Made by a program: the position numbers and the translations under genes. Below the pieces are notes generated by a model. The model was not told the DNA's origin and did not search any database. It worked only from the letters and a program-made list of their open reading frames with translations. A DNA stretch of 64,000 nt from Ignavibacteria bacterium (GTDB lineage: Bacteria > Bacteroidota > Ignavibacteria > Tepidaquicellales > Tepidaquicellaceae). Below, one piece after another: positions 7,417 to 62,945 of this stretch. Position 1 is the stretch's first letter, and every line of letters starts with the position of its first letter. The stretch spans positions 1-64,000 of the forward strand of contig JABAQZ010000019.1 of the NCBI GenBank assembly GCA_019187405.1. Direction: 5' to 3'.

Positions 7417-7526
7417 TGATTTAATTTTGAATTAATTAATAAAGTAACTTAAATTTTAACTTATGCAATTTAGCAATACATTGAACAAATACTATATGAT
7501 GAAAATCAAATTTACCTTCGGTAGTT

Positions 7527-7542
7527 TATGATATTTATCATA
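7527..7542. promoter_or_regulatory. Crp/Fnr-type palindrome TATGAT-N4-ATCATA
   Basis: Perfect 6-bp arms around ATTT, about 110 bases upstream of the lipoprotein/TonB receptor operon and past the stop of the small peptide gene. TGAT-N4-ATCA is the core of the Fnr consensus (TTGAT-N4-ATCAA). Confidence 0.5.
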
Positions 7543-46905: not shown

Positions 46906-47893
46906 TATGAATAAAGAAAAAATCCTCGACTTAATTATAATAGGTGCAGGTCCTATTGGTCTTGCATGCGGAATAGAAGCATCCGGTAATTCTCTCGAGT
47001 ATCTCATTATTGAAAAAGGATGTCTTGTTAATTCTATTTTTCATTATCCCACAAACATGACATTTTTTTCGACATCGGATAAAATTGAAATTGGCGGAAT
47101 TCCATTTGTTTCCCACGGCATCAAGCCAACTCGAAGAGAAGCTCTTGAATATTACAGAAGAGTCTGCGATTCATATAAACTAAATGTAAATACCTATGAA
47201 ATCGTTTCGGGAATTATTAAATCAAAGAATATCTTCAAAGTAACAACCGATAAAAGAGTTTACAGAGCAAGAAAAATTATAGTGGCAACCGGATATTATG
47301 ACAATCCTAATTTAATCGGAGTTCCCGGAGAAAATCTCTCAAAAGTAAAGCATTACTTTGACGAACCTCATCCGTATGCTTATCATAATACTGCAGTCGT
47401 AGGTGCGGGAAATTCAGCAATTGATGTTGCTCTTGAATTATTCAGGATCGGCGCTGATGTAACTATGATTATCAGAGAACCCGAAATTAAGTCATCAATA
47501 AAATATTGGGTAAAACCCGATATTGAAAACAGGATTAAGGAGGGTTCCATTAAAGCATTCTTTAACTCTGAAATTATTGAAATCAAAAAAAGTAAAATTA
47601 AAATAAAAACACCCTCCGGTATTATAGAATTAAAAAATGATTTTGTATTTCTTATGACGGGTTATCATCCCGATTTTAAATTTCTCAAAAAGATTAAAAT
47701 AGGAATTGATAAAAACAATGTGCCTGTTTATGACAGAAAAACTTTTGAATCAAACATAAAAGGAGTTTATCTTGCAGGTGTGATCTGCGGAGGTAAAAAT
47801 ACGGATAAATTTTTCATTGAGAATTCGATCGGCCATTCAAAAACAATAGTAAAGCAGATTGTATCACAACTTAAAGATCATTCAAGCCTTTGA
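46898..47893 (+). CDS. ypdA: YpdA family putative bacillithiol disulphide reductase
   Basis: 331 residues. FAD-binding GAGPIGLACGIEA near the N-terminus and an NAD(P)-binding VVGAGNSAIDVALELFR in the middle, as in two-domain flavin reductases. HYPTNMTFFSTSDKIEIGGIPF is the specific YpdA segment. It recycles oxidised bacillithiol with NADPH and thus fits with bshC at 10262. It is translated with pyk by an 8-base overlap, and its 3' end overlaps the end of the convergent CNB gene by 16 bases. A second ATG at 46907 is equally possible. Confidence 0.9.
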   Translation: MYDMNKEKILDLIIIGAGPIGLACGIEASGNSLEYLIIEKGCLVNSIFHYPTNMTFFSTSDKIEIGGIPFVSHGIKPTRREALEYYRRVCDSYKLNVNTYEIVSGIIKSKNIFKVTTDKRVYRARKIIVATGYYDNPNLIGVPGENLSKVKHYFDEPHPYAYHNTAVVGAGNSAIDVALELFRIGADVTMIIREPEIKSSIKYWVKPDIENRIKEGSIKAFFNSEIIEIKKSKIKIKTPSGIIELKNDFVFLMTGYHPDFKFLKKIKIGIDKNNVPVYDRKTFESNIKGVYLAGVICGGKNTDKFFIENSIGHSKTIVKQIVSQLKDHSSL

Positions 47894-48282
47894 ATCCTGT
47901 TGCTCAGGTATTTTAATACCCAAAGATTAAATTCATCATTCTTTGAAGTAACATTATATAGCTCATTTTTATCTACTGCAAAAGTGTTGGTATCCTTGAT
48001 TACGACAGCAGAATTATAATGCTTCTTTGTGGTTAATGCATCGCAGAATCCGATAATGTCGCCCGCATGCACTGTCGTTATGAGTTCGGTCTCTTCTTTA
48101 TTTTTTCTTTTGCATAAATTCACTTCTCCGGACAATAAAAAGTAAATGTCTTTTACATCATCATTCTCCGAAAAAATTATATCGCCGCTTTTGAATGACA
48201 AAAATTCTTTCTGTGTAAATTTATCCAGAAGAGATTCAAAATTAAAATCCTTCAGGAATGAATTTGTATATTTTTCAAACAT
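47878..48282 (-). CDS. Stand-alone cyclic-nucleotide-binding-fold (Crp-type) protein without HTH
   Basis: 134 residues. The sensor barrel of Crp/Fnr proteins is present (FLSFKSGDIIFSENDDVKDIYFLLSGEVNLC and TTVHAGDIIGFCDALTT), and the protein stops after the dimerisation helix start. There is no DNA-binding helix-turn-helix. It lacks the R-x-S-A cAMP pocket signature, so the ligand is unknown. It lies 11 bases after the Crp/Fnr regulator as the last gene of the cco run, which suggests a partner or competitor of that regulator. Convergent overlap with ypdA (16 bases). Confidence 0.75.
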   Translation of the reverse strand: MFEKYTNSFLKDFNFESLLDKFTQKEFLSFKSGDIIFSENDDVKDIYFLLSGEVNLCKRKNKEETELITTVHAGDIIGFCDALTTKKHYNSAVVIKDTNTFAVDKNELYNVTSKNDEFNLWVLKYLSNRIQRLE

Positions 48283-48293
48283 TTTTTTTAGTA

Positions 48294-49001
48294 CTAATCA
48301 TACAGATTAGCAAGTTTAGTTAATGACTCGGGTTTTAGTATTTTTATTTTTTTGCCGTCAATATCTATAATACCTTCTTTTCTCAAATCGGAAAGCAGTC
48401 TGATAGTAGTTTCGGTTGCAGTTCCTACAATATTTGCAATCTCCTCTCTTGTTATTGTGATGTTCAATGAAGGATCATCTTCAGCGAAGCCGTAATATTC
48501 CTTTAACATAAGTAAAACTTCGGCAAGCCGTTCAAGAACCGGCTTCTGAGCAAGTATCGTAATTTTATTTACAGCTTCTCTCAAATCGACTGCCAAGAGT
48601 TTCATTATTCTTTGAGTGATATCAGCATTATTTTGCAGAAACCCAAAGAATACATTTCTCGGTATCAGACATATTTTGGAATCCTCTATCACAGCAGCCG
48701 TAGCAGTATACGCTTCGCCGCTAATTAATGCCCTGTAACCAATAATATCTCCGTCTTTCGCCAACCTAATAATCTGATCTTTGCCTTCAAAACCGCTCTG
48801 CGATATTTTTACTTTGCCGCTGTTAATGCAAAACAATCCAATGGGAAAACTTCCTTCCGTAAATATCACTTGCCCTTTCATGTAATAATTGCAATGCTTC
48901 TGAAGCGAAAGCATTTCAAGCTCTTCCTTTGAAAGCATGCTGAATATCGAGTCCAGTCTTGCTTTACATGTCTCGCACATGGGTAATTGAATTTTCTTCA
49001 T
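48294..49001 (-). CDS. Crp/Fnr family transcriptional regulator
   Basis: About 235 residues from ATG 49001 (the upstream TTG at 49031 is less likely). Sensor domain with KGQVIFTEGSFPIGLFCINSGKVKIS, dimerisation helix, then the HTH ITREEIANIVGTATETTIRLLSDLRKEG. In the recognition helix the Glu and Arg that read the TGA core are kept, whereas Fnr Ser212 is Ile. C9, C12 and C111 line up with Fnr C20, C23 and C122; the position of Fnr C29 is Ser18, and C37 may substitute. This hints at, but does not prove, an Fe-S sensor. Tenth gene of the cco run. Confidence 0.88.
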   Translation of the reverse strand: MKKIQLPMCETCKARLDSIFSMLSKEELEMLSLQKHCNYYMKGQVIFTEGSFPIGLFCINSGKVKISQSGFEGKDQIIRLAKDGDIIGYRALISGEAYTATAAVIEDSKICLIPRNVFFGFLQNNADITQRIMKLLAVDLREAVNKITILAQKPVLERLAEVLLMLKEYYGFAEDDPSLNITITREEIANIVGTATETTIRLLSDLRKEGIIDIDGKKIKILKPESLTKLANLYD

Positions 49002-49094
49002 CTTCTGGTTTGAATTTTGGATTCTATTCAAAATTAGCTCAATCAGTTTTTAATAACAATTCAAATGGAAGCGGCTTTTGCGGACAATTTCTTT

Positions 49095-49799
49095 TTAATT
49101 GCAGATTATCCCCTCGTTAGCTTTGACTGTTTCGCTCAACTTCGGGCTTATATATGGAATACCAAGATTCAGCCCCCTTAGTATGAAAAGTATTGCAAGT
49201 ATTATCGTAAATACGGGTATCAGTTTCCTGACTTTTAGTATTTCAAAATTTATCCTCCTGCCTAACAGCGATACGCTCATCATTAATGGAAATGTTCCCA
49301 GTCCGAACAGCAACATAAATAAAATTCCGCTGACTAAATTTCCGGATAACAAAGCTCCCGATAATGCAAGATATACTAGTCCGCATGGAAGAAACCCGTT
49401 TAATATGCCTGTTAAGAAAAATGCCGCACCGGAATTCTTTCCTAAATAATATCCGAATAGAGTCTTAAATCTAAAATATAATCTTCCTAAATACCGGTTT
49501 TTTATCATCAAAGAAAACGGATCATGTGAAATGAATAATCCGGCGATTATTATCGTCCCTGTTAATATGGAGACTGTCTGCTGAAGACCTGACATCTTTA
49601 TTCTGTCTCCAAGCAATCCGAATATTGCGCCAAGTAATAAGTAGGTTGTTAATCTTCCGGAGTTGTATAATATTCTTTTAAAAATGAATTTCATTTTATC
49701 CTTGTCTTGCCCGGAAAGCGCTAAGGCAATCGGACCGCACATTCCCGCGCAATGCAGACTGCCTGTCATTCCAAGTACTAATCCTGCCAAGATTTCCAT
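49095..49799 (-). CDS. SafE/TauE-like membrane protein of the cco cluster
   Basis: 234 residues with six or more membrane helices. The N-terminus GMTGSLHCAGMCGPIALAL, with its two Cys, is typical of the UreH-like/DsbD-related proteins found next to cbb3 oxidase genes. Their role is thought to be metal or redox handling in oxidase assembly, but is not well defined. The start overlaps the ccoH stop by one base (TAATG at 49799). A 93-base gap separates it from the regulator gene. Confidence 0.82.
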   Translation of the reverse strand: MEILAGLVLGMTGSLHCAGMCGPIALALSGQDKDKMKFIFKRILYNSGRLTTYLLLGAIFGLLGDRIKMSGLQQTVSILTGTIIIAGLFISHDPFSLMIKNRYLGRLYFRFKTLFGYYLGKNSGAAFFLTGILNGFLPCGLVYLALSGALLSGNLVSGILFMLLFGLGTFPLMMSVSLLGRRINFEILKVRKLIPVFTIILAILFILRGLNLGIPYISPKLSETVKANEGIICN

Positions 49800-50236
49800 T
49801 ATTCCAAAAAGATCCTTTCTTCGATAAAATATTTTTCGGAATTATAAATCAGATTAAGTCTTAACTTCCACAATCCTCTGTTCATGTTTTCAGTATTAAT
49901 TTTCTGCATGCCTCCATTGGTGAAATTAATTCTTTCGGTAAAATCCTTGTCTTCATCGTTTGTTCTGTAAAAATAAATTTCACCGGATAAATTTCCTGCT
50001 AATTTCGAATCTTCAACCTCAATTATTATATCTTTCACTTCCAATCTAATTTTAATTTTTTCTTTAAGGAATATAGATCGCTTCAGCATGTCAATCTCAT
50101 TCTGATACTTAATCTCTTTTTCATAATAATTTTCCGCAACAAGATCGGTATCATTTTTCATTGAAACTGCTACCATCACTGCTACCCCAGCAGCAAATAT
50201 TATAAAAGATATTATTATTTTTATTCCCCAGCTCAT
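49799..50236 (-). CDS. ccoH: FixH/CcoH family cbb3 oxidase assembly protein
   Basis: 145 residues, one N-terminal membrane helix (about 5-27) followed by the family stretch ENYYEKEIKYQNEID and a small periplasmic beta domain. FixH/CcoH is needed for stable assembly of cbb3 oxidase. The gene is one base after ccoG and overlaps the SafE-type gene, so all three are probably coupled. Confidence 0.88.
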   Translation of the reverse strand: MSWGIKIIISFIIFAAGVAVMVAVSMKNDTDLVAENYYEKEIKYQNEIDMLKRSIFLKEKIKIRLEVKDIIIEVEDSKLAGNLSGEIYFYRTNDEDKDFTERINFTNGGMQKINTENMNRGLWKLRLNLIYNSEKYFIEERIFLE

Positions 50237-50237
50237 G

Positions 50238-51659
50238 TTATTCCTGCTTCCTGCTTTGCGGTCCTAAGAAAGAAGATTCAATGCTGCCAATGTTTTCATT
50301 ACCCGAAACAGCGTCTATTTTTACCGGAGTATTTGTCATTTTTATGTTTTTTTTCGATAAAATCAAAAGCATGCTTCCTTCATAAATCTCCAGCGGCTTT
50401 AATGTTATTGCCTGCCCGATCAATTTAATTTCTCCCTCCATGTTTGAAAGTCTGAATTCAACAGGCATTTCTTTGAATGTCTTATTTACAATTTTGATGT
50501 TGTATAAATTACTCACTTTATCTTCAGGCATTTCCTGATAAAGCATTCCGGGTGTCCTTAGTACGCTGATGTCAATATCTTTTCTTAAAGCAAACAATAC
50601 GGATATAACGGCGATTAGTATTAATAAAACAGTTGAATATCCGATAATTCTCGGAGTAATTTTAAGTCTGCTCTTATTGAGGATTGCCTCCATCGAATCA
50701 TATCTTATAAGTCCCCTGTCTCTGTTAATTTTGTCCATTACGTCGTCGCATGCATCTATACAGGCAGTGCAGTTTACACACTCAAGCTGCGTACCGTTTC
50801 TAATGTCTATTCCCGTTGGACACACGGCAACGCAGAGTTTGCAGTCAATGCAGTCGCCAAGATTTAATGATTTTTTATCCTTTGCTTTGCCTCTCGGCTC
50901 TCCCCTGACAGAGTCATAAGCTATTACAATAGAATTCTTATCTAGTAAAACGCTCTGAAGCCTTCCATAAGGACAAACAAGTGTACATGCCTGCTCCCTG
51001 AACCATGCAAAAATAAAATAAAATATTCCCGTAAATATCAAAATTGAAATAAAACCTGTAAGATGCTGTGATACAGGTTCATTTATTATCTTCCATAACT
51101 CATCAATCCCTATTATGTATGACAAAAATATGTTTGATATAACAAACGATAGTCCGAAAAAAACTATATACTTCAGAGTTTTTTTAAAAATCTTTTCAGC
51201 ATTCCATTCTGATTTTTCCAATGCAATCTGTCTCAGATAATCGCCCTCGATCAAATATTCTATTTTTCTGAAAACCATTTCCAGAAAAATCGTCTGCGGG
51301 CAAAACCATCCGCAAAATATTCTTCCATATACTGCCGTAACCAAAAATAATGAAACAAACAACGCTATCATTACAAGTCCAAACAAATAAAAATCCTGCG
51401 GTACAAATAAGATGCCAAATATTATGAATTTCCTTTCCAGTATGTTTAAAAGCATGAAAGGATGTCCGTCGATTTTTATGAAAGGCAGTCCGAATAATAC
51501 GGCAAGCAGAAATATACTGAATATATTTCTCGCAGTATAAAATCTTCCTTTTGGTTTTTTCGGGTAAATCCATTTTCTCTTTCCATCACTCTTGACTATT
51601 GAAATCGTATTCCTGAATTCTTCCTCTGCTATTTTCTCTTTAACCTCTTCTTTCTGCAT
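50238..51659 (-). CDS. ccoG: Cytochrome c oxidase accessory protein CcoG (FixG/RdxA)
   Basis: 473 residues. About five membrane helices, the segments YGRIFCGWFCPQTIFLEMVFRKIEY and CTLVCPYGRLQSVLLD, and a double 4Fe-4S cluster site CIDCKLCVAVCP with CVNCTACIDAC (about 265-300). A C-terminal Ig-like periplasmic domain ends the protein. CcoG acts in copper delivery to the oxidase, reducing Cu(II) through its Fe-S clusters. It starts 4 bases after ccoP. Confidence 0.93.
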   Translation of the reverse strand: MQKEEVKEKIAEEEFRNTISIVKSDGKRKWIYPKKPKGRFYTARNIFSIFLLAVLFGLPFIKIDGHPFMLLNILERKFIIFGILFVPQDFYLFGLVMIALFVSLFLVTAVYGRIFCGWFCPQTIFLEMVFRKIEYLIEGDYLRQIALEKSEWNAEKIFKKTLKYIVFFGLSFVISNIFLSYIIGIDELWKIINEPVSQHLTGFISILIFTGIFYFIFAWFREQACTLVCPYGRLQSVLLDKNSIVIAYDSVRGEPRGKAKDKKSLNLGDCIDCKLCVAVCPTGIDIRNGTQLECVNCTACIDACDDVMDKINRDRGLIRYDSMEAILNKSRLKITPRIIGYSTVLLILIAVISVLFALRKDIDISVLRTPGMLYQEMPEDKVSNLYNIKIVNKTFKEMPVEFRLSNMEGEIKLIGQAITLKPLEIYEGSMLLILSKKNIKMTNTPVKIDAVSGNENIGSIESSFLGPQSRKQE

Positions 51660-51663
51660 AAGA

Positions 51664-52629
51664 TCATTGATTCTTCTTTGATGTGTTTCCGTTTAAAGAA
51701 TCCTTAACCGATTTGTTAGTTGCTGCAGTATCTTTTGTCGATTTTATTGTATCTGATTTGGATTTTGTCGTATCCTGATTTTCGATGTATCTATCTCCTT
51801 CGGGCGGTTTTCCGTTTAGCGGCTTCGTACCTTGCAAGCTCAAAACATAGCTCGACACCTGTTGAATCATTTTCGGATTAAACTGATTCATCCACGATAT
51901 CATTCCTTTTGCCGGTACGCCGTATTTTATTGTTTTAAAAACATTTTTAATTCCGCCGCCGTGTATCCAAAACTCGTCAGTAAGATTAGGTCCGACAGTC
52001 CCTCCGCCGTTGTCGCCGTGACATGGGACACAGTTTGTGGAGTATATCTGCTTACCTGAATTCAACGATTCAGCATCTGATAAAAGCTCGACGGTAGTTT
52101 CATTTATAAATGCGCCTGTTCTTATCAGATCTTCCCTCTGAATTTCCGCAGCTCTTACTTCATCTGCATATTCCTGCAACGGAAGTTTGCCAATTTTCAG
52201 TACATGATAATTTATTAGATAAATTACTGCTATAACAATAGTACCGTAAAAAAGCAAATTAAACCACGGAGGTACATTATTGTCGAGCTCCTTTATGCCG
52301 TCATAATCTTCGTCAATAATAAGACTTTGCTCTGCCTCAGCAGGTTTTAATCCCGAAAGTTTGCCGAATAAAATTCCCAGCACAGATTTCTTCATGGCAG
52401 CTTTTGAGTCTGCAGTTTCTGATTCTGATTTTTGCTCTCTGAAAAGAGGAATGAATATTACATTTAAAAGGAGAATGAATAACACAAAAAGAATAATATA
52501 ATATACTTTCATATTCATTTCGCCTTCGGCGGGAACGCTTTGTGCCTGCGCCGCTGCAGTATTTGCAATTATAAGTAAAGCAATTAATACAGCTGAAATT
52601 TTCATGATAAATTTTGAATTATTTTTCAT
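51664..52629 (-). CDS. ccoP: cbb3-type cytochrome c oxidase subunit CcoP (mono-haem)
   Basis: 321 residues. Two hydrophobic segments lie near the N-terminus (about 7-27, 39-63) and the conserved NVPPWFNLLFYGTIVIAVIYL membrane helix at about 118-142. Only one haem c motif is present, CVPCH (about 202-206), with the segment GPNLTDEFWIHGG and the distal Met in the KGMISWMNQ segment. Classical CcoP has two haems, so this is a mono-haem form with an extra N-terminal membrane part. The Lys/Ser/Thr-rich tail (from about 275) is low complexity. It passes electrons to CcoO. Confidence 0.9.
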   Translation of the reverse strand: MKNNSKFIMKISAVLIALLIIANTAAAQAQSVPAEGEMNMKVYYIILFVLFILLLNVIFIPLFREQKSESETADSKAAMKKSVLGILFGKLSGLKPAEAEQSLIIDEDYDGIKELDNNVPPWFNLLFYGTIVIAVIYLINYHVLKIGKLPLQEYADEVRAAEIQREDLIRTGAFINETTVELLSDAESLNSGKQIYSTNCVPCHGDNGGGTVGPNLTDEFWIHGGGIKNVFKTIKYGVPAKGMISWMNQFNPKMIQQVSSYVLSLQGTKPLNGKPPEGDRYIENQDTTKSKSDTIKSTKDTAATNKSVKDSLNGNTSKKNQ

Positions 52630-52642
52630 TATTTCTTTTAAT

Positions 52643-52834
52643 TCATAAAATTAAATCCGATTCATTTTCCGAACCGTCTTTTTCAAGAGGAAGATTTTCC
52701 ATTTCTTTTATATAACTTTTATCAATCAAAAAAAGATAGGCTGTTACCCCTATGAAAAAAAGAAAAAACACCAGTAAAGATATTATCGGATAAATATCAA
52801 TGCCTTCAATTATTTCAAAGTAATGCTTAAACAT
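52643..52834 (-). CDS. ccoQ: cbb3-type oxidase small subunit CcoQ
   Basis: 63 residues with one membrane helix (about 18-40) and a polar acidic tail, the usual layout of CcoQ/FixQ, which stabilises the complex. It is 13 bases after ccoNO and 13 bases before ccoP, the typical place for this subunit. Confidence 0.82.
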   Translation of the reverse strand: MFKHYFEIIEGIDIYPIISLLVFFLFFIGVTAYLFLIDKSYIKEMENLPLEKDGSENESDLIL

Positions 52835-52847
52835 TTTTTAAAATTAA

Positions 52848-54974
52848 TTATTTTTCCGAAACCGTATTTTCTACCTTAATATCCGTCCCAAGTCTCTGCA
52901 GATAAGCAATCAGCGCAATTATTTCCTTATTGCTGTCAACAAAGACTCCGTTTTTTTCAAGATCAAGCCTAATTACATCAGCTTGCTTGAGCAATTCGCT
53001 GTTGGACATTTTTTCAAACTCCTCAGAATAAGGAACTCCGATCTTTCTCATCGCGCTTATTTTGGATTCAGTATTTGTTATGTCTAAGTCTTGCGTCAGA
53101 AGCCATGGATAAGATGGCATTATAGAACCCGGCGACATTGTCCTCGGATCATTCATGTGATAAAAATGCCAGAGATTCGGATATTTTTTTCCGACTCGCT
53201 GAAGATCAGGACCTGTCCTCTTTGAGCCCCATAAAAACGGATGATCATAAACAAACTCTCCTGCTTTGGAATATTCACCGTACCTTTCCGTTTCAGATCT
53301 GAAAGGTCTTATCATTTGCGAATGACAAGTATTGCAACCCTCTCTGATATAAATGTCTCTTCCCTGCAATTCCAGCGGAGTATATGGCTTAACACTGCTG
53401 ATAGTGGGAATGTTTGACTTAATCAGGAAAGTTGGTATCATCTGCACAAGTCCTCCGATTAAAATTGCAATAGTTGCAATTACAGTAAACTTAAACGGCT
53501 TTGATTCAAGAAGTTTGTGCTTATACTTATATATTTCTCTATGGTTTTTTAAATAAGGCGCAGCTTCAGCTTCTTCATTTTCCAAAAGATTTCCGCTTTT
53601 GACTGTCTTTATTAAATTGTACAACATTACAAAAACACCGATTAGATAAAGCGAGCCGCCAATTGATCTCGTAAGATACATCGGAATAATTTTTGTAACA
53701 GTCTCGAGAAAATTAGGATACTGCAGCAGTCCTTCGGGAGTAAAGTGCTTCCACATTAATGATTGAGTAATTCCGCCCCAGTATAAAGGAACAGCATAAA
53801 ATATAATTCCAAGCGTTCCAATCCAGAAATGAAAATTTGCAAGTTTGCTTGAATATAAATTTGTTCTGTATATTTTTGGAATAAGCCAGTACAGAATTCC
53901 GAATATCAAAAATCCGTTCCACCCAAGCGCACCAATGTGAACATGAGCAACAATCCAGTCAGTGTAATGCGCTATTGCATTTACATTTTTCAGAGAAAGC
54001 ATGGGTCCTTCAAATGTTGCCATACCGTAAGCCGTAATTGCAACTACCATGAATTTCAATATAGGATTTTCTCTTACTTTGTCCCAAGCGCCGCGTAATG
54101 TAAGCAGTCCGTTTATCATTCCTCCCCATGAAGGAGCAATGAGCATTATGGAAAATATTGTTCCCAGTGACTGCGCCCAGTCAGGTAATGCAGTGTAAAG
54201 CAAATGATGAGGTCCCGCCCAGATATAAATAAATATCAGCGACCAAAAATGTATTATTGACAGTCTGTAAGAATAAATCGGTCTGTTTGCTGCTTTGGGA
54301 AGGAAATAATACATCAGCCCCAGATATGGAGTAGTAAGAAAAAATGCAACGGCATTATGCCCGTACCACCATTGAACGAGCGCATCTTGAACTCCAGCAT
54401 AAACAGGATAACTCTTAAATAGATCAACGGGTATTTCAATCGAGTTGACAATGTGTAAGACTGCTACCGTTACAACTGTTGCAATGTAAAACCAGATGGC
54501 AACATACAAATGCTTTTCTCTTCTTTTGGCAATTGTGCCGAACATATTGATGGCAAATATTACCCAAACCACTGCAATTAAAATATCGAGAGGCCATTCG
54601 AGCTCTGCATATTCTTTGCTTGTTGTAAATCCCATCGGCAGACTAACTGCCGCGCCAGCAATAATAATCTGCCAGCCCCAGAAATGCAGCTTGCTTAACA
54701 AGTCGCTGTACATTCTCGCCTTGCATAGCCGCTGAAGCGAATAATAAATTCCCATAAACATTGCATTTCCTACAAATGCAAATATTACTGCATTTGTATG
54801 AAGAGGTCTAAGTCTGCCGAATGTCGTGAATTGATTTCCGAGATTCATTGCCGGTTCAATCAGCTGAAGAGATGCTATCAGTCCGGCAAGCATACCAACT
54901 ACACCGAATACGATTGTTGCAATTGCAAAATTCCGCACGATTTTATTATCGTAGCTGAATTTTTCCATTTCCAT
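52848..54974 (-). CDS. ccoNO: cbb3-type cytochrome c oxidase, fused catalytic subunit CcoN-CcoO
   Basis: 708 residues. The CcoN part (about 1-480) has 12 membrane helices with the haem/Cu ligands in GRLRPLHTNAVI, WWYGHNAVAF (CuB), AGPHHLLYTALP and AHVHIGALGWNG. The CcoO part (about 535-700) has the haem c motif CNTCH followed by SQMIRPFRSETERYGEYS and MPSYPWLL. Fused CcoNO is common in Bacteroidota-type bacteria. It is the high-affinity terminal oxidase that reduces oxygen and pumps protons at low oxygen. Start set by Shine-Dalgarno AAGGAGA, 10 bases before the ATG. Confidence 0.95.
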   Translation of the reverse strand: MEMEKFSYDNKIVRNFAIATIVFGVVGMLAGLIASLQLIEPAMNLGNQFTTFGRLRPLHTNAVIFAFVGNAMFMGIYYSLQRLCKARMYSDLLSKLHFWGWQIIIAGAAVSLPMGFTTSKEYAELEWPLDILIAVVWVIFAINMFGTIAKRREKHLYVAIWFYIATVVTVAVLHIVNSIEIPVDLFKSYPVYAGVQDALVQWWYGHNAVAFFLTTPYLGLMYYFLPKAANRPIYSYRLSIIHFWSLIFIYIWAGPHHLLYTALPDWAQSLGTIFSIMLIAPSWGGMINGLLTLRGAWDKVRENPILKFMVVAITAYGMATFEGPMLSLKNVNAIAHYTDWIVAHVHIGALGWNGFLIFGILYWLIPKIYRTNLYSSKLANFHFWIGTLGIIFYAVPLYWGGITQSLMWKHFTPEGLLQYPNFLETVTKIIPMYLTRSIGGSLYLIGVFVMLYNLIKTVKSGNLLENEEAEAAPYLKNHREIYKYKHKLLESKPFKFTVIATIAILIGGLVQMIPTFLIKSNIPTISSVKPYTPLELQGRDIYIREGCNTCHSQMIRPFRSETERYGEYSKAGEFVYDHPFLWGSKRTGPDLQRVGKKYPNLWHFYHMNDPRTMSPGSIMPSYPWLLTQDLDITNTESKISAMRKIGVPYSEEFEKMSNSELLKQADVIRLDLEKNGVFVDSNKEIIALIAYLQRLGTDIKVENTVSEK

Positions 54975-54992: not shown

Positions 54993-56195
54993 TTATAAAA
55001 AGTTAATTTCTTTCAGACACTTTTTGATTCTCTCAAAAGCAAGCGTAATGTCATTGTCAATGCCAATGGAAAATCTAATCAAGCCGTCGCTAAGCCCCAT
55101 CTTTTGCTGCTCTTCTTCCGATATTTCCGAAGAAGTGCTGTGACCGGGCGAGCTGAACAGCGTTTTAAAATATCCTAAACTTACTGCAAGATATCCGACT
55201 TTTTCCTCCTGCATCCTTGTCATAACTCTTGAAGCGTTTTCATACGATTTAACATCAAGTGCAAGCATTCCACCATAACCAAATCCCTCATTCATTAGCG
55301 ACTTGAGAAGATCATGGTCTTTGTTTGATTTCAGTCCCGGATAAAAAACTTTTAGCCCCAATTTCTCAAATTCTGTTGCAAGAAACAAAGCATTTTCTCC
55401 GTGCTTTTTTATTCTTATGTGAAGTGTGTGAAGATTTTTCAAAATACTTGCTGCACGGAAACTGTCAAGCACTGGACCAAGCAGCATAGTTGCTCCAGCA
55501 TTTATATCTGTCAGCGTATGTATAAAATCATTTGAAGAGCATATACAACCCGCAACACAGTCGCTTGAACCGTTAATATATTTTGTCATGCTGTGAACTA
55601 CAATGTCCGCACCGAGTCTTGACGGAGACAATATCATTGGACTGAATGTATTGTCAATGATTAGCTTTATTCCATATTTTTTGGCAATAGCGCTTAATGC
55701 CGGTATGTCAGTTACTTCAAGAAGCGGATTGCTGATTGATTCCGCATAAATAATTTTTGTTTTGTCATTAATTAAGGATTCAACTCCGGCAGTATTTTTT
55801 ATATCAGTAAACTTTGTTGTAATTCCCAGTTTGGGCAGAAAGTTTTTCAGCAATGCATAAGTGCCGCCGTAAACAGTTCTTCCTGATATTACTTCATCAC
55901 CTGCCGAGCAGATATCGAGAATGGTAGAACTTATTGCGCCCATCCCCGATGAAGTTACCTGCGCAGACTCAGTATCTTCCAGTCTCGCAAGAGCATTTGA
56001 TAAATATTTGTTTATCGGATTCCAGTGACGTGAATATAAAAAGCACCCTTCGATTTCATGATCAAATACCTCTTCCATTTTTTCAGGATTATGAAACGTA
56101 AAAGTGGATGAATCGGTAATAGAAGGGTTTACGTCGCCGAATTCTCCAAAAACTAGATAGTCGTGTATTCCAGTACTCGGATCAAACTTTTTCAT
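54993..56195 (-). CDS. PLP-dependent Cys/Met metabolism enzyme (methionine gamma-lyase/cystathionine gamma-synthase-like)
   Basis: 400 residues, fold type I. The PLP lysine is K205 in HSMTKYINGSSD; the ring-binding Asp is D181 in DNTF, and YSRHWNP at 54-60 holds the active-site Tyr and Arg. The N-terminal SITDSSTFTF and the GAGMGAISS-like SGMGAISST are typical. The family cleaves or exchanges the gamma position of Met, homocysteine or homoserine esters; lyase and synthase cannot be told apart by eye. It overlaps ccoS by 14 bases and is 18 bases before ccoNO, an unexpected insertion in an oxidase operon. Confidence 0.88.
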   Translation of the reverse strand: MKKFDPSTGIHDYLVFGEFGDVNPSITDSSTFTFHNPEKMEEVFDHEIEGCFLYSRHWNPINKYLSNALARLEDTESAQVTSSGMGAISSTILDICSAGDEVISGRTVYGGTYALLKNFLPKLGITTKFTDIKNTAGVESLINDKTKIIYAESISNPLLEVTDIPALSAIAKKYGIKLIIDNTFSPMILSPSRLGADIVVHSMTKYINGSSDCVAGCICSSNDFIHTLTDINAGATMLLGPVLDSFRAASILKNLHTLHIRIKKHGENALFLATEFEKLGLKVFYPGLKSNKDHDLLKSLMNEGFGYGGMLALDVKSYENASRVMTRMQEEKVGYLAVSLGYFKTLFSSPGHSTSSEISEEEQQKMGLSDGLIRFSIGIDNDITLAFERIKKCLKEINFL

Positions 56196-56382
56196 GATTA
56201 TTTACCTCATTATTGTTTTTAGTATTGTTAATGTTATTATCGAATTCATCATCAAGCAAAATCCTTACCGATGGAGTATATTTATCCTCGTATTGTCCGG
56301 TTTTTACAGACCAGATGAAGCCTATCAAAAAGCAAACTGCCACAAAAAGACTTACTCCAATAAGTAAGATCAGAACATTCAT
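56182..56382 (-). CDS. ccoS: cbb3-type oxidase maturation protein CcoS
   Basis: 66 residues, a single membrane helix at 2-24 followed by the conserved FIWSVKTGQYED (family W-x-x-K-x-G-Q-Y/F-x-D), then a low-complexity Asn/Asp-rich tail. CcoS is needed to insert haem and copper into the oxidase. Its ATG overlaps the ccoI stop by 4 bases. Confidence 0.9.
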   Translation of the reverse strand: MNVLILLIGVSLFVAVCFLIGFIWSVKTGQYEDKYTPSVRILLDDEFDNNINNTKNNNEVNNHEKV

Positions 56383-58826
56383 TTCAGCTTAAGTTTCTTT
56401 GCCGAAAAATTTGTCGCGCCAATTACAATCAGAATTATCGATATGGAATTTATCGGCATTAGCACTGCAGCAATCAGAGGAGAAAATGTTCCCTGCGATG
56501 CCAGATACAATCCAATGACATTATAAATGAATGATATGACAAAGCAGATTTTAATTATTGCTATTGTATGCTTTGAAAATTTAAGAAACGAATTCAGCTT
56601 ATAAAATACCGAAGCATCAATCAGCGCGTCACTTGCAGGTGAAAAATTGGTTATGTCTTCGGAGACGGAAATTCCGGTGTTGCTCTGCTTCAAAGCCCCT
56701 GCATCATTGAGTCCATCGCCTATCATGATTACATTGCTTCCATTTGCCTGAAGAGCTTTGATGTAGTTTAATTTGTCCTGCGGAGTCTGGTTAAATAAAA
56801 GATTATTATCCTCCGTAAATATTTTTTTAAGATTGCTTTTCTCGGAATTATTGTCCCCTGAAATCAAAGAAAGCTCGTAATTTTCATTAAGCTCGCTGAC
56901 TACCTTGCTTAATCCGTCTCTGTACTTATTGTTGAACGAGAAAAAACCTTTTATCTGATTGTCAATGGAGAGAAACACGTTTGTTGTAAATGCAGATTTT
57001 GTAATTTCATTTTTGAGATTTTCATATCCATAGTCCAGACTTTCCAGCAGAAATGATAACGACCCAAGTTTGATGATATTCCCTTCTACAGTTCCGGAAA
57101 TTCCTTCGCTTACCGTCTCGCTGAAATCTTTTACATTAAAAGTATCGCTTATGTCTATTGATTCATAAATCAGTCTGCTCAAAGGATGCGTGGAGTTTTT
57201 TACAAGCGATTTGACCATCGCCTGTTCGCAAAGTTTTAAAGCGCTTCCGGTAAATTTGATCGATACATCTCTTGAATTTGTAATTGTACCGGTTTTGTCA
57301 AATACAATTGCATCTGCAGCTGACAACTCTTCAACAACACCTGAATTTTTCAGATAAAATTTATTTCGTCCGAAAATCCTTACTGCATTGCCCAAAGCAA
57401 AAGGCGCTGTAAGCGCAAGAGCGCAGGGACAAGCAATAATAAGCACAGTGGTGAAAGCATTAAGAGCAAGATTAATGTCGACGGGAAGCCAGTAAACTGC
57501 CGAAGCTATTGCTATAAGCAGAATTACAACAGTAAAATATCTGCTGACTTGATTTGTAATGTTGTTAAAGTCTGTCTGCTTCTTTTTTTCAAATGCTTTG
57601 TCGTTCCACAACTGTGTCAGATAACTCTGCGATACTGTTCTTACAATTTCCAGTTCAATTGCTCCTCCGAAATGCCTTCCTCCTGCATAAATAATTTCAC
57701 CCAGCACTTTTTGTTCGGGAAATGATTCGCCTGTTACAAAACTGTAGTCTATATTTCCCGTTCCGCTGAATAATATTGAGTCGGCTGGAATGATTTCATT
57801 GTTCCTTATTACTATCCGATCGCCTGTTTTTAAATTAATTACTGGAACCGATTTTAGATTTCCGGATTTTTTTACCGATACAGATATTGGAAGATAAGAT
57901 CTGTAATCTCTTTCGAAATTAAGAGTCTCATAAGTCTTATTCTGAAATAATTTTCCTAACAGCAAAAGAAATACAAGCCCTGCAAGCGAATCCGAAAAGC
58001 CGGCATTTCCGAATATTAAGATTTCATAAAGACTTCTGACAAACATTGCAGCAAGACCAAGAGAAATCGGGAAATCAATGTTAAGGAATTTATTCTTTAA
58101 ACCATTAAATGCAGATTTAAAATAATCGGAACTGCAGTAAAATAACACTGGCAGCGAAAGTATTAAGTTTAAGTAATTAAAAATCTGCCTTAGACTATTG
58201 TCAGATTTAATATTCAATCCGAAATATTCGGGAAAACTGAACAGCATGATATTCCCCATACAAAATCCCGCAATGCCTATTTTTGTAATCAGGCTTTTGT
58301 TGAATGATGATTTGATGCCGGTATCCTGCTCGCTCTCATCAAGATTAATCAGCGGCTCATAACCTATCGAAGTCAGGATAATTACAATGTCTTTCAGTGA
58401 AACTTTTGTGTTGTCAAAAACTATGGATATATTTTTTTTGAGGAAATTTACTTTTGAACTCAATATTCCTTCGTTCAACTTGTATAATTTTTCCAGCAGC
58501 CAGATGCAGGATGAACAATGTATTCCCGGAATTTTAAATGAAACTGAGGACAATTTTTTATCAGTAAATTCAATCAGCTTCTTTTTTATATTCTCATCAT
58601 CAAGGTAGTCAAATTTTCTTACCGAAACTGAATCTTTAAGCTTAATGCCAGCTTTTTCATCTATATTATAATAATTGCACAAATCCTTGCTGTAAAGGAT
58701 CTCAAATACTGCTTTGCATCCTGCACAGCAAAAATTCTTATCACCCAATGAAAATACACCTTCGCTGCATGATTCCCCGCAATGATAACAACATATCTCT
58801 GTTTTTTTCTTTAAATTGTATGACAT
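56379..58826 (-). CDS. ccoI: Copper-transporting P1B-type ATPase CcoI (FixI)
   Basis: 815 residues. A Cys-rich N-terminal zinc/copper site (CCYHCGESC and CCAGC) is followed by an HMA domain with GIHCSSCIWLLEKL, then the ATPase core: CPC in IACPCALALTAP, the phosphorylation site VFDKTGTITNS and the hinge GDGLNDAGALKQS. FixI/CcoI exports copper to the site where cbb3 oxidase is assembled. It is the first gene of the cco run; typical clusters start with ccoNO. Two Crp/Fnr-type boxes lie 48-83 bases in front of it. Confidence 0.93.
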   Translation of the reverse strand: MSYNLKKKTEICCYHCGESCSEGVFSLGDKNFCCAGCKAVFEILYSKDLCNYYNIDEKAGIKLKDSVSVRKFDYLDDENIKKKLIEFTDKKLSSVSFKIPGIHCSSCIWLLEKLYKLNEGILSSKVNFLKKNISIVFDNTKVSLKDIVIILTSIGYEPLINLDESEQDTGIKSSFNKSLITKIGIAGFCMGNIMLFSFPEYFGLNIKSDNSLRQIFNYLNLILSLPVLFYCSSDYFKSAFNGLKNKFLNIDFPISLGLAAMFVRSLYEILIFGNAGFSDSLAGLVFLLLLGKLFQNKTYETLNFERDYRSYLPISVSVKKSGNLKSVPVINLKTGDRIVIRNNEIIPADSILFSGTGNIDYSFVTGESFPEQKVLGEIIYAGGRHFGGAIELEIVRTVSQSYLTQLWNDKAFEKKKQTDFNNITNQVSRYFTVVILLIAIASAVYWLPVDINLALNAFTTVLIIACPCALALTAPFALGNAVRIFGRNKFYLKNSGVVEELSAADAIVFDKTGTITNSRDVSIKFTGSALKLCEQAMVKSLVKNSTHPLSRLIYESIDISDTFNVKDFSETVSEGISGTVEGNIIKLGSLSFLLESLDYGYENLKNEITKSAFTTNVFLSIDNQIKGFFSFNNKYRDGLSKVVSELNENYELSLISGDNNSEKSNLKKIFTEDNNLLFNQTPQDKLNYIKALQANGSNVIMIGDGLNDAGALKQSNTGISVSEDITNFSPASDALIDASVFYKLNSFLKFSKHTIAIIKICFVISFIYNVIGLYLASQGTFSPLIAAVLMPINSISIILIVIGATNFSAKKLKLK

Positions 58827-58873
58827 TTCATTAAAATTTACTCAAAAATAGAAGAATTTACAAACCACTTGTA

Positions 58874-58885
58874 TGACGTGAATCA
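58874..58885. promoter_or_regulatory. Crp/Fnr-type box 1 upstream of ccoI
   Basis: TGAC-GTGA-ATCA; on the minus strand TTGAT-TCAC-GTCAT, close to the Fnr consensus TTGAT-N4-ATCAA. Its centre is 22 bases (about two helical turns) from box 2. Confidence 0.5.
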
Positions 58886-58893
58886 AGAAACTC

Positions 58894-58909
58894 TATGATA
58901 TATATCATA
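58894..58909. promoter_or_regulatory. Crp/Fnr-type box 2 upstream of ccoI (perfect palindrome)
   Basis: TATGATATATATCATA is a perfect 16-bp palindrome with the TGAT-N4-ATCA core. It lies in the 241-base gap between ccoI and the divergent groES. Confidence 0.55.
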
Positions 58910-58992
58910 TTAATTAAGTTTCGAAAACTCATTTAAGGTTTTCTTAAAGTACATCTATCTTAGCATTGCAATTATTAATTAAAATGAATAAA

Positions 58993-59019
58993 TTAGCACT
59001 CTACAGTTTTGATTGCTAA
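58993..59019 (+). promoter_or_regulatory. CIRCE operator (HrcA site) of groES-groEL
   Basis: TTAGCACTC at 58993-59001, a 9-base spacer and GATTGCTAA at 59011-59019. The consensus is TTAGCACTC-N9-GAGTGCTAA, so one base differs. The position, 49 bases before the groES start codon, is typical. HrcA represses the operon in the absence of heat stress; hrcA is not in the window. Confidence 0.9.
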
Positions 59020-59067
59020 TATTTAAAATAACTTATCTATAAATAATAAACTTAAGAAAGGTATAAA

Positions 59068-62385: not shown

Positions 62386-62555
62386 TTATATTTCAGTCTT
62401 CATTTCTTCTGTGTCAATCATCATTTCTTCTGTGTCAGTCTTCATTTATTTTATGTCAATCATCATTTCTTCTGTGTCAGTCTTCATTTGTTTTATGTCA
62501 ATCATCATTTCTTCTGTGTCAGTCTTCAATAATTTTATGTCAATCATCATTTTGA
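62386..62555 (-). repeat. 21-bp tandem repeat array A (alternating 42-bp unit), heptad-coding on the minus strand
   Basis: Units of exactly 21 bp such as TCATTTCTTCTGTGTCAGTC alternate between two subtypes, so a 42-bp period is also seen. Read on the minus strand, the fragment is a run of heptads such as MMIDIKQ-MKTDTEE-MMIDIK, interrupted by one stop. No complete gene can be built from it. Confidence 0.8.
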
Positions 62556-62649
62556 AATTACCATAATCCTGAATAACAACCTCTATATGTTCGCTTACAA
62601 TTGTCACTCTTCATTTATTAGATTTAACTGCTCATTTCTTTTGTATTAG

Positions 62650-62735
62650 ATAATATTTCTCTTGATTCAAATTCCATTTCTCTTTTATTACTTAATATTT
62701 CTCTTGATTCAAATTCCGTTTCTCTTTTGCTACTT
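62650..62735 (-). repeat. 42-bp tandem repeat array B, heptad-coding on the minus strand
   Basis: The 42-bp unit beginning AATATTTCTCTTGATTCAAA recurs at 62652 and 62694. On the minus strand the open frame here reads REMEFESREILSNKREMEFE and neighbouring repeats, two heptads per unit. Confidence 0.7.
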
Positions 62736-62839
62736 AACATTTCCATTCTTTCACTCTCCATTTCTCTAATGTCATACTACATTTTAACAATTTCACTATG
62801 CAGCCTGACATTAACTAAAAGTTCTCTAACATTTGTCAG

Positions 62840-62945
62840 TCTTCATTTCTCTTGCGTCACACTTCATTTCTCCTATGTGACACTTCATTTCTCCTATGTC
62901 ACACTTCATTTCTCTTGCATTACACTTCCCTTCTCCTGCTTAAAA
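62840..62945 (-). repeat. 21-bp tandem repeat array C, heptad-coding on the minus strand
   Basis: Starts of TTCATTTCT at 62842, 62863, 62884 and 62905, with a related TTCCCTTCT at 62926, all 21 bp apart. On the minus strand it reads NAREMKC-DIGEMKC then HIGEMKC-DAREMKT, an open heptad run ending at TAG. Confidence 0.8.

Follow-up and report, generated by a model that had tools for sequence, protein, structure and literature searches.

The window, that is, the whole stretch of 64,000 nucleotides analysed here, contains a run of 11 minus-strand genes that begins with ccoI and includes a Crp/Fnr regulator gene, to which we refer here as fnr (Table 1). The gaps between these genes do not exceed 18 bp, except for one of 63 bp before fnr. 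A sequence-only reading of this DNA had described the run as uninterrupted, which is correct for the continuous strand and the short gaps but not for the 63-bp gap. The same reading had assigned the Crp/Fnr regulator to the distal gene of the run. A regulator is indeed encoded in the run, but by the tenth gene; the last open reading frame contains no HTH and was rejected as the regulator. The product of this last frame has a nearly constant length (134 to 137 aa) in four relatives, where its gene lies 3' of fnr. In the sister family f2, fnr is followed by the gene for a second, full-length Crp/Fnr protein, with whose N-terminal part the 134-aa product aligns. This product is possibly a conserved partner or inhibitor. 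Several genera have the gene for the methionine gamma-lyase-like enzyme between ccoS and ccoNO, and in genus g3 (G003-G005) it follows ccoI-ccoS while ccoNO lies elsewhere in the genome. At 62393-62939, the window also carries arrays of 21/42-bp tandem repeats, with low-complexity open reading frames on both strands.

Table 1. Genes and promoter features of the cco region (coordinates are those of the window)
Feature	Position	Strand	Remarks
CIRCE element of groES-groEL	58993-59019	+	one mismatch; neighbour outside the cco module
Distal Crp/Fnr-type box TATGATATATATCATA	58894..58909 (core 58896-58907)	-	perfect palindrome; centre 58901.5, predicted -63.5
Proximal Crp/Fnr-type box TGACGTGAATCA	58873..58886 (TGACGTGAATCA at 58874-58885)	-	minus strand TTGATTCACGTCAT; centre 58879.5, predicted -41.5
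Bacteroidota-type -7 element TATTTTTG	58850-58843	-	perfect match to TANNTTTG; first T 29.5 bp from proximal box centre
Predicted ccoI transcription start (A)	58838	-	12 nt 5' of ATG; placed from the -7 register
ccoI, P-type copper ATPase	56379..58826	-	first gene of the run
ccoS, assembly protein	56182..56382	-	
Cys/Met-metabolism PLP enzyme, methionine gamma-lyase-like	54993..56195	-	below curated cut-off; between ccoS and ccoNO
ccoNO, fused cbb3 oxidase subunits I and II	52848..54974	-	
ccoQ-like small membrane protein	52643..52834	-	from position and conservation; no Pfam match
ccoP, cytochrome c subunit	51664..52629	-	
ccoG	50238..51659	-	
ccoH (FixH)	49799..50236	-	
DsbD_2-family membrane protein	49095..49799	-	
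Conserved box-free promoter-like sequence before fnr	49029..49064	-	TTGAATTGTTATT (49052-49064) and TAATTTTG (49029-49036)
fnr, Crp/Fnr regulator	48294..49031	-	cNMP fold and Crp HTH; tenth gene
HTH-less Crp-fold protein, 134 aa	47878..48282	-	cNMP-binding domain only; last open reading frame

Between ccoI (-) and the groES-groEL operon (+) lies a divergent intergenic region of 241 bp (58827-59067). Here we could reproduce, with the same coordinates and spacing, the two Crp/Fnr-type boxes that had been reported with centres 22 bp apart before ccoI. Genome-wide motif counts were obtained by pattern searches, with TGAY-N4-RTCA as the single-box pattern. Single boxes of this kind are not rare, with 10 in the window (5.9 expected) and 354 in the 3.78-Mb genome from which it comes. 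Pairs spaced by 22 bp, for which this density predicts ∼0.03 per genome, occur once in the same genome, at ccoI only. The perfect palindrome of the distal box has one other exact copy in this genome, at G000:C17:10948, where no -7 element was found at the right distance; we therefore rejected the lone palindrome as a marker of the regulon. Two more boxes, spaced by 32 bp, which corresponds to one additional helical turn, are found at 7497-7540 of the window.

The source genome is of the Ignavibacteria type, with a G+C content of ∼35% and with promoters that match those of Bacteroidota. The TAnnTTTG -7 element of the Bacteroidota sigma-A factor is present before ccoI as the perfect match TATTTTTG, which the sequence-only reading had not included. 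In the mapped transcriptome of Flavobacterium, this element occupies positions -12 to -5 (PMC9723704), and the same register applied to TATTTTTG places the two boxes at -41.5 and -63.5. Relative to the predicted start, the proximal box thus has the operator position of class II promoters, with exactly 29.5 bp between its centre and TANNTTTG. In the genome of the window, a single box with a correctly placed -7 element was found at 10 places, compared to none in a reversed control. Among these ten places are ccoI and, as named from sequence, a response regulator, a heterodisulfide-reductase-like gene, two hemerythrin-like genes and a fasciclin-like gene.

We extended the search to 391 genomes of the class, of which 29 belong to the family of the window (f1), 15 to the sister family (f2) and 347 to neither. 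The 22-bp pair was detected in 13/29, 15/15 and 10/347 of these genomes, respectively, while a reversed-pattern control gave three matches in all 391. The 29 f1 genomes contain 50 two-box places when the left box is TGAT and the spacing is 12 to 42 bp, and 18 of these have a spacing of exactly 22 bp, compared to about one for each other spacing; the largest other class, with 10 places at 33 bp, resembles repeated coding sequence. When 77 distinct 22-bp pairs were read, TANNTTTG was located 29.5 bp past the proximal centre in 53 cases and 30.5 bp past it in 4, with no more than two cases at any other offset, although neither the 77 pairs nor the 53 promoters count as independent events, since the genomes are related. 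Alignment of these 53 promoters in register revealed conservation at positions left free by the search: all 53 have T at -35, 45 have A at -70, 43 have T at -57 and 50 have a purine at +1. The spacing and the -7 register together rule out a chance origin, and the 22-bp pair before ccoI is real and far above chance.

Conservation of the pair in related genomes, which had been proposed as a check, extends to most relatives but not to all. Within f1, the pair lies before ccoI in G000, G011, G012, G014, G015 and G026. Only the proximal box is retained at ccoI in G024 and G025, and only the distal one in G016-G018, where a full pair precedes an upstream universal-stress gene. No boxes were found at ccoI in G007, G008 and G009, in which the oxidase and a related regulator are present. 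These sequence comparisons support the view that the paired boxes form a conserved promoter module before ccoI, which keeps the same spacing to the -7 element in varied upstream gene contexts. In family f19, one tandem pair (L117, in G338) is flanked on either side by TANNTTTG at the right distance and may drive two divergent genes at once.

The commonest target among the 77 pairs is ccoI, with 20. Of the remaining targets, again named from sequence, FAD oxidoreductases account for 10 pairs, NtrC-type regulators, with a multihaem cytochrome on the opposite side, for another 10, AsnA-like enzymes for 8 and secreted CxxCH proteins for 6; three pairs have fnr itself as their target, and the rest are single cases.

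The product of fnr belongs to the Crp/Fnr superfamily, with matches to PF00027, PF13545 and PF00325 above the curated cut-offs. It scores 98 bits against the curated FNR model NF008365 (cut-off 228) and 79.5 against the FnrL model (cut-off 300); as judged from these scores, the protein is FNR-like and is not classed as FNR. Its recognition helix, ATETTIR, keeps the Glu and Arg of the FNR motif ExxSR and has Ile in place of Ser; the corresponding helix of E. coli FNR is VETISR. Residues C19, C22 and C121 align with cluster cysteines of FNR. The remaining cluster position is not Cys, and the third classical cysteine of the E. coli cluster has no counterpart at the same position. Five cysteines (19, 22, 47, 68 and 121) are kept in nearly all tandem-linked orthologues, and an oxygen-sensing cluster in this protein appears plausible. 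Inside families f1, f2 and f30, the orthologues group together with good support. With a threshold of E<1e-50, an orthologue was found in 13/13 pair-bearing f1 genomes and in 4/16 others (Fisher 6e-5, in a test that ignores shared ancestry), as well as in all 15/15 f2 genomes, each of which carries the pair. In G002-G005 of genus g3, ccoNO is present and neither the regulator nor the boxes were found.

From the layout and spacing of the boxes, the -7 register, their conservation and the co-occurrence with the regulator, we infer that ccoI is transcribed from an activated promoter of the class II type, bound by two dimers of the cco-run regulator and probably responding to low oxygen. We estimate the probability of this reading at about 0.72. 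The boxes would then serve as tandem operators, with one dimer of the 48294-49031 protein at -41.5 contacting RNA polymerase in the way known from class II FNR promoters, and a second dimer at -63.5, two helical turns upstream, on the same face of the DNA. The polymerase would use the Bacteroidota sigma-A -7 element TANNTTTG and would depend on the activator in the absence of a -33 element. A TTTG-like -33 motif was indeed not found to be conserved among the 53 aligned promoters, so that transcription of ccoI should need an activator; such a gap is expected where an activator replaces the -33 element. A -33 motif could likewise not be identified in Flavobacterium johnsoniae (PMC7366714). The signal, most probably low oxygen, would be sensed via the conserved cysteines, in analogy to Flavobacterium psychrophilum, where the cbb3 oxidase is strongly induced under oxygen limitation (PMC9723704).

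The genome of the window encodes four HTH Crp/Fnr proteins, namely the 48294-49031 product and three more. The tandem operators might thus be real while another paralogue, for example C9:10314-11006, is the main cco regulator. The C9 paralogue has an N-terminal CxxC, and both it and the C10 paralogue adjoin a single-box promoter. The C9 recognition helix is, however, CRP-like (RETATR) rather than ATETxIR, and across the order the tandem sites track the cco-type regulator orthologue, which makes this assignment unlikely.

It had further been proposed that the run is a self-controlled oxidase operon. What stands of this proposal is the box module before ccoI and the presence of fnr within the run, together with its co-occurrence with the boxes; against it, the gap before fnr contains its own box-free promoter-like sequence. 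This sequence, with -33-like and -7-like parts, is found in the window and in seven relatives, with an imperfect -7 part in some of them, and fnr therefore likely has its own promoter. The annotated TTG start of fnr overlaps the -7-like TAATTTTG, and the orthologues begin near an ATG at 49001, which is therefore probably the true start. In its strictest form, self-control would mean that the regulator is made solely from a single transcript spanning 58838 to 47878. The strand is continuous down to 49095 with gaps of no more than 18 bp, and no terminator-like site was found in the 63-bp gap, but given the conserved promoter-like sequence, and since fnr of f2 is separate from the cco genes and opposite in orientation, we consider a sole source of this kind improbable. 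A scan of the run for sigma-70-type promoters yielded 50 matches compared to 42.4 in shuffled sequences (sd 5.4), with no clear enrichment. In this lineage, fnr is thus probably expressed mainly from its own box-free promoter, independently of cco, with read-through from cco being possible. Boxes lie directly at fnr promoters only elsewhere, namely in G007 and also in G341 and G258, where divergently oriented fnr and ccoI genes have a single pair in common; in f2, the box at promoter distance belongs to the gene after fnr, the second Crp/Fnr gene. Since box-linked fnr promoters are confined to these genomes, autoregulation can at most be ascribed to some of the relatives.

Repression from overlapping sites is known for Crp/Fnr proteins, and the proximal box, which ends at -35 and adjoins the -33 region, could accordingly be a repression operator at which a bound dimer blocks the polymerase, with cco being relieved when the regulator is inactive. 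This is very unlikely, as box and -7 element are spaced exactly as at class II activator promoters and the lack of a conserved -33 element in the 53 promoters suggests dependence on an activator. That the boxes serve the groES-groEL operon, whose first gene starts on the opposite strand at a distance of 158 bp and which is the divergent neighbour also in G011, G012 and G025, is hardly credible and was rejected, since the upstream context changes among relatives, the pair persisting before ccoI without a groES neighbour in G014, G015, G026 and the f2 genomes, while groES has a CIRCE element and TANNTTTG was not found at the right distance on its side.

Beyond the activated ccoI promoter, the pairs might represent a rigid two-dimer promoter class, in which only the combination of -41.5 and -63.5 operates at the main targets, perhaps cooperatively, within an order-wide low-oxygen regulon that the HTH-less 47878-48282 protein would tune via mixed complexes. 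We regard this extension as speculative and unlikely to hold.

Regulation in Ignavibacteria is almost unstudied, and many members are known from metagenomes only. The same layout before cco and other respiratory genes would make a low-oxygen regulon of this little-studied order readable from sequence. The fixed layout is a signature with low background that predicts targets and start sites across the order from sequence alone, and it provides a precise model, amenable to testing, for the way in which a Crp/Fnr activator could work with a Bacteroidota sigma factor when the usual -35 element is missing. Our literature search found neither this tandem layout with TANNTTTG across Ignavibacteria nor reports on Ignavibacterium cbb3 with Fnr, Bacteroidetes ccoN with Fnr, or Fnr sites at 41.5 and 63.5, which is weak evidence, as subscription papers were mostly outside its scope.

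Several known systems resemble the ccoI promoter in part. Crp/Fnr proteins of Ignavibacteria, the same broad lineage and protein superfamily, have been called MalR- or Flp-like carbon sensors in the only meta-regulon study that our search found for this group (PMC8510549); the accessible part of that study describes neither a cco-linked regulator nor a tandem operator, unlike the case here. HcpR, another member of the Crp/Fnr family that occurs in Bacteroidota, recognizes a similar TGAC-containing palindrome, with TTGACnnnnGTCAA as the site of its regulon (PMC1274295), whereas no hcp gene turned up among the target clusters linked to the pairs described here, and the targets are largely respiratory. 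Class II FNR/CRP promoters share with the ccoI promoter the box centre at -41.5, here counted from the predicted start, the TGA-N6-TCA core and a weak or missing upstream core element. They differ in having TATAAT rather than the Bacteroidota sigma-A -7 element and the half-site TTGAT rather than ATGAY, and the ccoI promoter has in addition a second site at -63.5, at a fixed spacing of 22 bp. FNR-type control of the cbb3 oxidase, by FnrL, FixK2 or ANR, is well known in Proteobacteria. There, as by analogy here, a Crp/Fnr protein controls cco/fix genes at low oxygen; in contrast to these systems, the one described here belongs to another phylum, with another sigma factor and another operator, and its regulator gene lies inside the cco run, followed by the gene for an HTH-less Crp-fold protein.
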